DNA of 64,000 nucleotides from the NCBI RefSeq assembly GCF_900188375.1, contig NZ_FZOO01000003.1, positions 186,001 through 250,000 on the forward strand. The letters are read 5' to 3'. Origin of the DNA: Geodermatophilus pulveris (lineage in GTDB: Bacteria > Actinomycetota > Actinomycetes > Mycobacteriales > Geodermatophilaceae). Of this stretch, positions 29,684 through 32,609 are shown in pieces; the first letter of the stretch is position 1, and the number at the start of each line of letters is the position of its first letter. A model generated the notes under the pieces. That model saw nothing but the letters and a program-made list of their open reading frames with translations, was not told the DNA's origin and searched no databases. Both the position numbers and the translations under genes were made by a program.

Positions 29684-30778
29684 GTGACCCGCCGCGCCGA
29701 CGACCTGCTGTCCGGGCCACGCGGCCGGAGGGTGTGCCTGGAGGTCGTGCTCGACGCCGTGGGGGGCGACTGGCGCCGGCTGGTGTGGACGAGGGGGTCG
29801 GGCGGCCGGTACGACCCCGAGCAGACCCGGCGGTCGCTGGCCGCCTCCATCGCCGCGCTGGACCTGGCGGCGGTGCGCGCCACCGCTCGGCCGGACGACT
29901 GGATGCCCGCCCTGCTGGCAGCCGTCGACGCCGCGAGGTACTGGCAGGAACCCGGCGACGAGGACCGGGCGCTGGCCGGACCGGCGATGGCCGCGGTGCT
30001 CGCTCCGCTCGCGGCGGCCGTCGCCCGGGCGCCCGCGTCCCAGTGGTGGGCCGAGCCGATGGCCGCGGACGACCAGCACGCCGTCGCCTTCCGGGACGAC
30101 GACGAGGCGACACCGGGTGCCCCGCTCCTCACGGGGGCCGGCCCGGCGCTGCGGGAGTGGCGGGAGCAGGCCGCCGCCGAGGAGGACCGGGCCCGCCGGG
30201 AGCGGCCGGCGGACCCCCGGGCGGACTGGAGCGGTGAGTGGTGGTCCACGCCCGCGCTGACCGGGCGGGTCGTCACCACCCGGTCCCTGCCCGGCACCAC
30301 GCCGGCGGAGCCCCGCGCTCCGGTGCGGCTGCCACTCGTCGAGGACGGGATGGGGTGGACCACGGCGCGCAGCTGGCCGGTGCACGTCCCCGGTGACGCC
30401 TGCGTGCTGGAGCTGACCGGTCCGGCGGACTGGGTGGCGCTGATCGAGCGGTACCCGCGGGAGGTCACCGCGTCCCGCCGGCACGACTGGTGGCGGGTCG
30501 CCGGGTGGGACGGCACCTGGGTCGTCCCGGACTGGGCGGCCGTCGCCGAGGACGTGGACGGCGTGCACCTCACCGTCGACGGCTACCTGTCCACCGCCGG
30601 CCGGGCACTGCCGGTCGACGTCCCCGCGCTCGCCGGCCCGGCCCGCACCCTGCTGGCCGGCTGGGACCCGGACGCGACGTGGTGGCTCACGGACGCACCG
30701 GCCGGGCTGGGCGCGGCGACCGACTGGCGACGCCGGGACGAGGCCCCGTACTCGACCTGGGTGGCCGCCGGTGCCTGA
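29684..30778 (+). CDS. Hypothetical protein, 364 residues
   Basis: GTG start, strongly GC3-biased and evidently coding. No signal peptide or membrane segment. Contains several Trp-rich patches (SQWWAEPMAA, SGEWWSTPAL, RHDWWRVAGWDGTWVVPDW) and an acidic, Ala-rich centre with charged helix (EWREQAAAEEDRARRERPA). C-terminus has VHLTVDGYLSTAGRAL followed by WDPDATWWL. No family is recognised. It may correspond to an uncharacterised actinobacterial protein family; no function offered. Confidence 0.75.
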   Translation: MTRRADDLLSGPRGRRVCLEVVLDAVGGDWRRLVWTRGSGGRYDPEQTRRSLAASIAALDLAAVRATARPDDWMPALLAAVDAARYWQEPGDEDRALAGPAMAAVLAPLAAAVARAPASQWWAEPMAADDQHAVAFRDDDEATPGAPLLTGAGPALREWREQAAAEEDRARRERPADPRADWSGEWWSTPALTGRVVTTRSLPGTTPAEPRAPVRLPLVEDGMGWTTARSWPVHVPGDACVLELTGPADWVALIERYPREVTASRRHDWWRVAGWDGTWVVPDWAAVAEDVDGVHLTVDGYLSTAGRALPVDVPALAGPARTLLAGWDPDATWWLTDAPAGLGAATDWRRRDEAPYSTWVAAGA

Positions 30779-30832: not shown

Positions 30833-31810
30833 TCAGTCGCGGGGGTCGGCGGGGCGGCCGGCGGCCACGGTGCGGTCGCGCCCGTCCGCAGGCTCCCCGC
30901 GCAGCCGGGCGGCCTGCGCGGCGAGGGCGTCGGCCGACTCGCGGACCCGGTCGCGCCGGTACTCGCGGAGGGAGTGGACGACGGCCGCGGCCCAGACGGC
31001 GACGAGGAGCACGTAGACCGCGGAGCGCACCGCGTCGGAGGCGTCGACCCAGTCGCTGCGGAGCAGCGTGCGGGTGTTGGTCAGGACGATGACGCCGCCG
31101 ACCAGCGAGCCGAGCATCCGCGGTGGGACGTGCCGCACCAGCCACGCCGCGATGGGGGCGGCGACCAGGCCGCCGGCGAGGAGGCCCAGCACCCACAGGA
31201 CGTCGATGCCCTGCGAGCCGAGGGCGAGCACGAAGCCGAGGCTGGCGGCCACGGCGACGAGGAACTCCGAGGTGTCGATCGAGCCGATGACCGTGCGTGG
31301 CTCCATCCGGCCACTGGCCAGCAGCGCCGGCGTGCCGACCGGGCCCCAGCCACCGCCACCGGTCGCGTCGACGAAACCGGCCACCATGCCCAGCGGGCCG
31401 AGGAAGCGCTTGCGGACCGGCTTGCCGAGGTGCCGGCGGTCGACACCGCGGAGGGTGAAGCGCACCAGCAGGTAGACACCCAGCGAGAGCAGGACCAGCG
31501 ACATGACCGGGGCGGCGACCTCGGTCGAGAGATGGGACAGCACGGTGGCCCCGAGGAAGGCGCCGACCGCGCCGGGGATGCCGACCTTGGCGACGACCCT
31601 CCAGTCGACGTTGCCGAACTTCCAGTGCGCGAGGCCGGACGCGAGTGTCGTGCCGATCTCGGCGAGGTGGATGGTGGCCGACGCGGCAGCCGGGTTGGTG
31701 CCGATGGCGAGCAGCAAGGTGGTCGACGTCACGCCGTAGGCCATGCCGAGGCTGCCGTCCACGAGCTGCGCACCGAGGCCCACGAGGGCGAGCAGGACCA
31801 GTGTCTTCAC
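30833..31810 (-). CDS. TauE/SafE family sulfite exporter-like permease
   Basis: 325 residues from GTG (GGAGA eight bases upstream). About eight hydrophobic segments in two halves with the family motifs QLVDGSLGMAYGVTSTTLL at the N-terminus and GFVDATGGGGWGP in the middle. Family members move sulfite, sulfoacetate or related organosulfur anions. The upstream cysteine-codon leader peptide supports a sulfur role. The C-terminal 60 residues are charged and cytoplasmic. Confidence 0.92.
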   Translation of the reverse strand: MKTLVLLALVGLGAQLVDGSLGMAYGVTSTTLLLAIGTNPAAASATIHLAEIGTTLASGLAHWKFGNVDWRVVAKVGIPGAVGAFLGATVLSHLSTEVAAPVMSLVLLSLGVYLLVRFTLRGVDRRHLGKPVRKRFLGPLGMVAGFVDATGGGGWGPVGTPALLASGRMEPRTVIGSIDTSEFLVAVAASLGFVLALGSQGIDVLWVLGLLAGGLVAAPIAAWLVRHVPPRMLGSLVGGVIVLTNTRTLLRSDWVDASDAVRSAVYVLLVAVWAAAVVHSLREYRRDRVRESADALAAQAARLRGEPADGRDRTVAAGRPADPRD

Positions 31811-31900
31811 GGGCTGGTTCTCCGGATCCGGGGAGTCCGCGGGCCCGCAGAGAGGCGTGGCGCAGCGCGGGACGTGCGAGGGGAGCGCGGGACGCGAGGG

Positions 31901-31984
31901 TCAGCAGCCCGGACAGCGCGCGGTGCACACGCGCAGCAGGTCGACGTGGATCCGCCCCACGAGGAGCACCGCCGTCGCCGCCAC
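31901..31984 (-). CDS. Cysteine-responsive leader peptide upstream of the TauE/SafE gene
   Basis: 27 residues from GTG. The core GRIHVDLLRVC is the pattern of the actinobacterial leader peptides found before sulfate- and cysteine-metabolism genes, and three Cys codons lie in the last nine residues (C20, C24, C27). A -10-like TAGACAT ends seven bases before the GTG, so the mRNA may be leaderless or nearly so. The TauE gene begins about 90 bp further on. In mycobacteria similar poly-Cys ORFs attenuate the downstream operon according to cysteine supply; that mechanism here is inference. Confidence 0.8.
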   Translation of the reverse strand: MAATAVLLVGRIHVDLLRVCTARCPGC

Positions 31985-32051
31985 GGGAAATGTCTACCAG
32001 GTCGGTCGGGATAGGCGCCCGGTGCGTCCCGCTGACTGGGACGCCGGCCGC

Positions 32052-32609
32052 TCAGCCGCGCGCGGCCGCCGCGTCGTCCCCGCCGAGGGCGGCCACCAGG
32101 TCCGCCCGCGCCCGCGCCACCCGCGACCGGACGGTGCCCACCGGGCAGCCGGTGACCTCCGCGGCCTCGGCGTAGGACAGCCCGAGCAGCTGGGTGAGCG
32201 CGAAGGCCTCGCGCCGGTCGGGGGACAGCCGGGCCAGCAGGTCGGCGACCGCGGCGCCCTCGCCCACCCGGTCGGCGCGGTCGTCCGGGCGGAGGGCCTC
32301 GAGGTCGGCGTCCTCCCGGACCAGGGTGAGCCGGCGGCGCCGGCGGGAGCGGACGGCGTCGGCACAGACCCGCCGGGCGATCGACAGCAGCCAGGTGCGC
32401 AGGGAGGAGCGGCCCTCGAAGCGGTGCAGCGACCCGAAGGCGCGCAGGTAGGTCTCCTGGGTCAGGTCGTCGGCGGCCTGCCGGTCGCCGAGGGCCGCGC
32501 ACAGCCGCCAGACCTCGGACTGGGTGGCGCGCACCAGCGCCGCCGCGGCGAGCGGGTCCCCGTCGACGGCGGCGGCCGCCAACCGCTCCAGCTCGTCCAC
32601 GCCGTCCAT
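32052..32609 (-). CDS. ECF RNA polymerase sigma factor
   Basis: 185 residues. Sigma region 2 with DLTQETYLRAFGSLHRFEGRSSLRTWLLSIARRVCADAVR and region 4 with LLGLSYAEAAEVTGCPVGTVRSRVARAR; no region 3, hence an ECF factor. The gene is divergent (77 bp) from a zf-HC2 membrane protein, its likely anti-sigma factor, which leads a copper-protein operon. The sigma factor therefore probably controls that operon, in the manner of SigC-type ECFs in other actinobacteria. Confidence 0.93.
   Translation of the reverse strand: MDGVDELERLAAAAVDGDPLAAAALVRATQSEVWRLCAALGDRQAADDLTQETYLRAFGSLHRFEGRSSLRTWLLSIARRVCADAVRSRRRRRLTLVREDADLEALRPDDRADRVGEGAAVADLLARLSPDRREAFALTQLLGLSYAEAAEVTGCPVGTVRSRVARARADLVAALGGDDAAAARG

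Follow-up and report, generated by a model that had tools for sequence, protein, structure and literature searches.

Short open reading frames that end in cysteine codons raise the question of what they sense and which gene they govern. This question is posed by a locus of Geodermatophilus pulveris in which such a frame stands immediately before a transporter gene of a family whose substrate is often guessed. The locus lies in a window of 64,000 nucleotides, the term denoting the whole stretch of DNA that was analyzed. Comparison of the locus with its relatives indicates that the short frame is very probably a cysteine-sensing leader peptide controlling the permease gene in cis. The features on which the argument relies are the following.

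30833..31810, minus strand: TauE/SafE family permease, 325 aa, GTG start (PF01925, E 3.5e-42)
31811..31900, minus strand: untranslated C-rich spacer from leader stop to permease start (composition: C 0.52, G 0.27)
31820..31823, minus strand: putative Shine-Dalgarno sequence GGAG of the permease, 13 nt upstream of its GTG (locus alignment, folding)
31901..31984, minus strand: leader ORF, 27 codons, GTG start, MAATAVLLVGRIHVDLLRVCTARCPGC (ORF call, profile match, conservation)
31904..31906, minus strand: Cys codon 27, TGC, the last codon and a variable one in relatives (Cys in 19 of 26 aligned leaders)
31913..31915, minus strand: Cys codon 24, TGT, the motif Cys (D+9) (TGT count in distinct leaders)
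31925..31927, minus strand: Cys codon 20, TGC (TGC in 26 of 26 aligned leaders)
31994..32008, minus strand: CGACC-N5-GGTAG, putative -10 region and possible remains of a regulator site (conserved element, palindrome scan)
32052..32609, minus strand: ECF sigma factor gene, upstream of the leader (ORF list and family match)

A sequence-only reading of this DNA had described a 27-codon ORF with three late Cys codons, about 90 bp before the permease. Both points are confirmed: the ORF occupies 31901..31984 of the minus strand with Cys at codons 20, 24 and 27, and its stop lies 90 bp upstream of the permease GTG at 31810. On its other side, a gap of 67 bp (31985-32051) separates it from the ECF sigma factor gene. 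The leader does not extend the permease at its N-terminus, since the spacer, which is 90 nt here and thus a multiple of three, ranges from 69 to 129 nt in orthologues and is often not a multiple of three. Beyond the permease, the next long frame (29684-30778) runs on the opposite, plus strand, so the permease is probably transcribed alone.

Leader family and conservation

Judged by its sequence, the window ORF is a leader of the known actinobacterial cysteine kind. It possesses the R-x-H/A/T-V/I-D-L-x-R core followed by a Cys at D+9, and it matches the NCBIfam model NF042934 (cis_reg_atten, 'putative leader peptide') with an E value of 3.3e-05, positions 1-19 of the model aligning with leader residues 6-24. 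Its score of 23.4 bits is just below the curated cut-off of 27 bits, a diagnostic threshold and no biological feature, so that the leader is not filed there by score; two orthologous leaders at the same locus exceed the threshold (G030:C1:747451, 30.8 bits; G028:C5:97251, 29.1 bits). Against NF042936, the Ms4527A leader, the score is 21.3 bits for a cut-off of 45, and nothing in Rfam matched within 31600-32200. A leader search of the whole genome gave three matches at E <= 0.01 and six at E <= 10, and the same search of 14 control genomes gave matches in 10 at E <= 10 and in none at E <= 0.01. A second, weak DNA match of the leader region in this genome (C5, E 7.8e-4) was set aside because by eye it resembled coding sequence.

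Conservation of the small ORF upstream of orthologous permeases had been named beforehand as a point on which the proposal should stand or fall. The comparison was made and the leader withstood it, being present at 30 of 34 loci, that is, at 29 of the 30 automatically fetched loci (the window's own, L003, included) and at one of four evaluated further. The sole automatically fetched locus without a leader, L032, comes from another family. Among the further fetched loci, L085 has a leader, L083, L086 and L089 are without one, and L084, L087 and L088 were left out, their permease start not having been located by motif. Permease relatives occur in 35 of the 61 genomes searched, this one included.

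A permease search in a collection of genome contigs matched at least 574 relatives. The best 80 were taken, and all of them except L138 and L164 could be placed, which makes 78. In this set of the best 80 of at least 574, a regular expression detected the leader at 32 of the 78 placed loci: 29 of the 30 from Geodermatophilus, Blastococcus, Modestobacter and Klenkia (the exception being L109), two loci of Gordonia and one of Piscicoccus. A third Gordonia leader, L130, escaped the expression and was found by eye. The four genera, which belong to the Geodermatophilaceae, account for most of the leaders, and most permease loci outside them, within the same best 80 of at least 574, have no recognizable leader. 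The fetched-loci count and the 78-locus count overlap, several contigs representing the same strains; merging leaves 42 distinct permease leaders, and the number of Cys residues per leader among orthologues varies from 1 to 4. The leader of L085 (G013) is almost unchanged while the TauE permease that follows it has clearly diverged (67% identity), as if the permease had been exchanged behind a retained leader.

Constraint on the leader is seen at both the amino acid and the silent-site level. In an alignment of 26 leaders, which includes that of the window and omits three of 29 (L029-L031) with differing N-termini, the amino acids at codons 7-9, 11, 13-18, 20, 22, 24 and 25 are invariant in all 26, and codon 19 encodes Val in 25 and Ile in one. 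The leaders L030 and L031, both outside this count, have no Cys at position 20. The pN/pS ratio over leader codons 2-26 is 0.60, a weak indication alone. For codons 7-25, pN is 0.051 and pS 0.16, against 0.062 and 0.27 for the first 100 permease codons (compared without gaps), meaning that the leader core is about as constrained as the permease and that its silent sites are more so.

The cysteine-linked role that the sequence-only reading had assigned to the ORF is supported, on comparative grounds, by the company that similar leaders keep. This genome contains two more cysteine leaders, one before a NIR_SIR gene followed by cysH and the other before a rhodanese gene; the NIR_SIR gene would encode a reductase of either sulfite or nitrite, and the NCBIfam models for both types score below cut-off. 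Leaders of this kind were detected in 58 of 61 genomes searched, own included (E <= 0.01), and in 144 of the 197 genomes of a class sample (E <= 0.001). Downstream frames were placed for 29 newly fetched, best-scoring loci (L072 was misplaced) and 16 of them were scanned with Pfam. Sulfur, cysteine or methionine genes follow the leader in 11 of these 16: NIR_SIR (3), rhodanese (2), APS kinase, a siroheme-synthase-like domain pair, serine acetyltransferase, CbiX, cysteine dioxygenase and a NIL-domain ABC ATPase, presumably a methionine importer. The other five are two DUF4395 proteins, an NMT1-like binding protein, an ABC permease and a FAD-NAD protein.

The UGU codon at D+9

Like the residue itself, the codon of the motif Cys is highly constant. 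Among distinct sequences it is TGT in 41 of 42 leaders of permeases and in 53 of 56 leaders of other genes, kinship among leaders being ignored in both counts; the 56 derive from 59 examined, of which L072 and L189 could not be parsed and one was a duplicate. By origin, TGT is found at D+9 in 28 of 31 leaders taken from this genome and relatives, and in all 28 that were newly fetched from the class sample (best-scoring matches). Elsewhere TGT is a minority codon, with 6 of the 62 Cys codons of the genes called in the window, 25 of 141 in the frames flanking the class-sample leaders and 18 of the 70 remaining Cys codons inside those leaders. At two other leader positions the Cys codon is mostly TGC (28 of 30 at D+2; 20 of 27 at D+7), and the codons beside D+9 are mostly GC-rich, as usual. 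The UGU at D+9 thus looks like a codon-level rule, set against the TGC preference of these genomes. A literature search, narrow and therefore no proof of novelty, found no earlier report of this rule.

Some leaders depart from the common pattern. Three of the 31 leaders from relatives and this genome use TGC for the motif Cys; two of them, L066 and L067, precede similar FAD-NAD(P)-binding protein frames (PF13454; scanned for L066 only). The leaders L054, L185, L188 and L212 contain Cys runs of five or six with mixed TGT and TGC, and the gene after the L054 leader encodes a DUF4395 protein.

The simplest idea for the rule is wobble decoding. There is a single tRNA-Cys, of anticodon GCA, and UGU is readable only through G-U wobble. 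Slower decoding of UGU would make D+9 the first step to stall as Cys-tRNA falls, and the stall site would then be common to the leaders of quite different sulfur genes, the window permease included. A role of the codon in RNA pairing is the alternative idea. If functional, the rule would identify the sensing codon of cysteine leaders.

From leader to permease

The leader is preceded by a conserved GATCTGGTAGACAT-type element, which ends 5-7 nt upstream of the leader GTG or ATG in the aligned loci. No Shine-Dalgarno sequence is seen before the leader start in these loci, and together with the position of the element this agrees with leaderless transcription of the leader. In the window, the conserved GACCTGGTAGACAT at 31990-32003 overlaps CGACC-N5-GGTAG; a generic sigma-70 scan found nothing. 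A search of the genome for GAYCTGGTAGACAT returned one exact site, before the leader, and two-mismatch sites too numerous to use, while the sole TGGTAGGAAT site (C9) has no sulfur gene recognized nearby by eye.

The ORF, its conserved place, its sulfur-gene company and this promoter-like element are observed, and a model of stalling on Cys-tRNA is proposed by analogy with mycobacterial leaders. Transcription would start at the leader GTG or immediately beside it, and the leader would be translated at once. With plentiful Cys-tRNA the leader would be completed, and the C-rich spacer would then act against permease expression, through pairing with the permease Shine-Dalgarno sequence or through Rho loading. 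With scarce Cys-tRNA the ribosome would stall at codons 20 and 24 and cover the 3' end of the leader, so that the permease would be made; the presumed direction of control is therefore on at low cysteine. The classical attenuator with terminator and antiterminator was rejected, as there are 0 sites resembling an intrinsic (Rho-independent) terminator between leader and permease and no covarying structure. RNAalifold on 29 spacers revealed no covariation (9 pairs, 0 with compensatory change), and hairpins drawn by eye were abandoned.

The readout may be translational, a prospect we place slightly below even, with the spacer and the leader 3' end masking the permease Shine-Dalgarno sequence and a stalled ribosome freeing it. 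Folding predicts that this sequence is mostly paired (mean unpaired probability 0.15), as it is in most of the 29 loci (median 0.07). In 11 of the 29 it pairs mainly with bases at the leader stop or just downstream of it. Masking of the ribosome-binding site is also what Canestrari 2020 reportedly argues for in M. smegmatis. Against this, the predicted pairing is no stronger than in dinucleotide shuffles (unpaired 0.15 versus 0.17), the partners vary among loci, and the lack of covariation weighs on the same side. A ribosome modeled at codon 24 raises the mean accessibility of the Shine-Dalgarno sequence from 0.15 to 0.23, while at codon 20 it leaves it at 0.15. At the stop codon it gives 0.22, so the model cannot separate a stall from normal termination.

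Readout by Rho is a tentative option, conceivable and somewhat doubtful: completion of the leader would expose the C-rich spacer, upon which Rho would stop transcription, and a stalled ribosome would shield it. The C content of the spacer is the highest among 27 upstream regions of heuristically called window genes (mean C/G 0.36/0.39). Orthologous spacers are of the same composition (mean C 0.55 and G 0.27 in 29, own included), those of the two other leaders of this genome have C contents of 0.47 and 0.57, and the missing terminator speaks for Rho too. However, C-richness would equally provide an anti-Shine-Dalgarno sequence, so that it fits Rho loading as well as masking, and it is masking that is said to be favored in M. 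smegmatis. Rho has been suggested for mycobacterial cys leaders, in a prediction that its authors call rather weak (PMC1262725).

Control of the permease by a transcription factor bound at the element before the leader, with the leader as a relic or a tuner of level, is unlikely. The GATCTGGTAGACAT-type element resembles the right half of a palindrome, CTACY-N5-RGTAG, which with at most one mismatch was found upstream at 10 of the 32 loci with a leader and at 24 of the remaining 46 (best 80 of at least 574 relatives), against 0.5% and 1.4%, respectively, in shuffles. The whole palindrome precedes the leader in some Modestobacter (L106, L129, L162), taking the form CTACC-N5-GGTAG in L106 and L129, and TTCCTACT-N5-AGTAGGAAT precedes the permease in L116, L126, L136 and L149. 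At L089 (G005), a second permease copy retains CGATCTGGTAGGAAT without a leader, a point in favor of a factor. In the window and many Geodermatophilus, on the other hand, the left half misfits, with 2-3 mismatches, whereas the leader core retains its amino acids, and the element may simply be a -10 region. The strict palindrome, with at most two mismatches, occurs in four leaderless genomes (L116, L136, L149, L150) at one place each, the permease, with one additional place in G062 and one match of the reversed control, in G064; being nearly unique per genome, it marks a local rather than a global site.

A candidate for such a factor is found beside the leaderless permeases. An Rrf2 gene lies within 2 kb of 18 of the 46 permease loci without a leader (L116, L120, L124, L136, L155 and 13 others) and of 0 of the 32 leader loci, again in the best 80 of at least 574 relatives; the leader loci are mostly of one family, and the comparison does not amount to 32 independent cases. 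The profile behind this search was built from six Rrf2 proteins, all but one taken from these loci, and L130 was counted as leaderless. For five Rrf2 proteins, four beside permeases and one from this genome, CymR is the second-best model after general Rrf2, all five scoring under the CymR cut-off. A single Rrf2 gene scores over cut-off in this genome; it lies about 2.7 kb from the leader of the NIR_SIR gene and favors a factor, and the absence of any such gene within 2 kb of the leader loci counts against one. The CymR-like genes near leaderless permeases are an independent pointer to sulfur control, and alongside the 11 of 16 sulfur-type genes downstream of leaders in relatives they lend support to the sulfur link which had been proposed for this transporter. 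The element can be read as the trace of an earlier local repressor site, which may function as a -10 region here. Related permeases lie near a CymR-like regulator gene in some actinobacteria and follow a cysteine leader in others, and the exchange of a protein sensor for a ribosomal one can now be studied.

That the peptide itself is functional, as a nascent chain in the ribosome tunnel or as a small membrane-associated peptide with incidental Cys codons, is highly improbable: the HVDL-x-R core is kept although attenuation needs only Cys codons, and Cys 27 is replaceable in relatives, but the D+9 Cys, codon included, is among the most constant residues.

Possible sulfur import and known systems

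The preferred reading, a cysteine-sensing leader acting in cis, bears on the task of the permease. Membership in the family is clear from a PF01925 TauE score of 145.1 bits, over the Pfam gathering score of 32.6; a search of the PDB with the permease alignment gave two weak matches to RibD chains (E 0.008), which were taken as chance. The genome has cysH (NCBIfam, over cut-off) and 0 matches to SulP, and the strongest candidate under the sulfate ABC permease model, at 201 bits for a cut-off of 240, was rejected as a molybdate permease beside modA. No match over this cut-off exists in any of 37 family genomes. With cysH, and no recognized SulP or CysTW, the permease may import sulfur, and we tentatively regard it as a candidate importer of inorganic sulfur. 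If, as proposed, the permease is induced on cysteine shortage, it more likely takes up a sulfur source than exports sulfite, the activity implied by the family name. Complementarity is of no help to this idea: SulP occurs in 17 of 31 family genomes with the permease and in 3 of 6 without it (37 genomes), so the two are not mutually exclusive. A member of a transporter family with often guessed substrates thereby receives a testable job, that of a candidate sulfur importer probably induced by cysteine shortage. It is a speculative, rather unlikely step further that a UGU at the invariant D+9, tuned by wobble, is the class-wide sensor, and that here it replaces a neighboring CymR-like repressor at the inorganic-sulfur importer of the cell.

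Among known systems, a limited search of the literature found no leader of this kind before a TauE permease, and within the literature searched the TauE/SafE permease appears as a leader target without earlier report. A CymR-type regulator has been predicted in Rhodococcus (PMC8557817). At related leaderless permeases, CymR/Rrf2 proteins (NF047409) would respond, as the leader would, to cysteine or sulfur status; unlike the window leader, they are DNA-binding proteins, and the local Rrf2 proteins score below the CymR cut-off.

Ribosome-mediated attenuation has also been proposed for the uORFC-8-2 motif upstream of cysS in Rhodobacterales (PMC8632094). In both systems the proposal of attenuation is based on Cys codons in an upstream ORF. 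They differ in that uORFC-8-2 belongs to alphaproteobacteria, has tandem Cys codons that are mostly UGC and possesses an intrinsic terminator.

Closer parallels come from actinobacteria. Candidate cys leader peptides of Mycobacterium, Propionibacterium acnes and Bifidobacterium longum (Seliverstov 2005, PMC1262725) resemble the window leader, in the passages available, by the lack of a terminator, by pyrimidine stretches in the spacer and by the suggestion of Rho. In contrast to it, they precede cys operons or cbs and contain runs of Cys codons, and those passages name no TauE permease among their targets.

A Cys-rich ORF before cysA2 has been described in mycobacteria (Shell 2015, PMC4633059), and for cysteine-responsive regulation by such ORFs PMC9094748 cites Canestrari 2020. 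The window leader differs from the mycobacterial ORFs by its scattered Cys codons (20, 24 and 27), which form no run, by its TauE/SafE permease target and by a score just under the NF042934 cut-off. It shares with the leaderless Cys-rich ORFs of mycobacteria (PMC4633059; NF042936; NF042934) a short frame with a putative leaderless start, the R-x-H/A-V-D-L-x-R core of the NCBIfam models, terminal Cys codons, a locus in which no intrinsic terminator was found and a sulfur gene downstream, the last provided that the permease is one.
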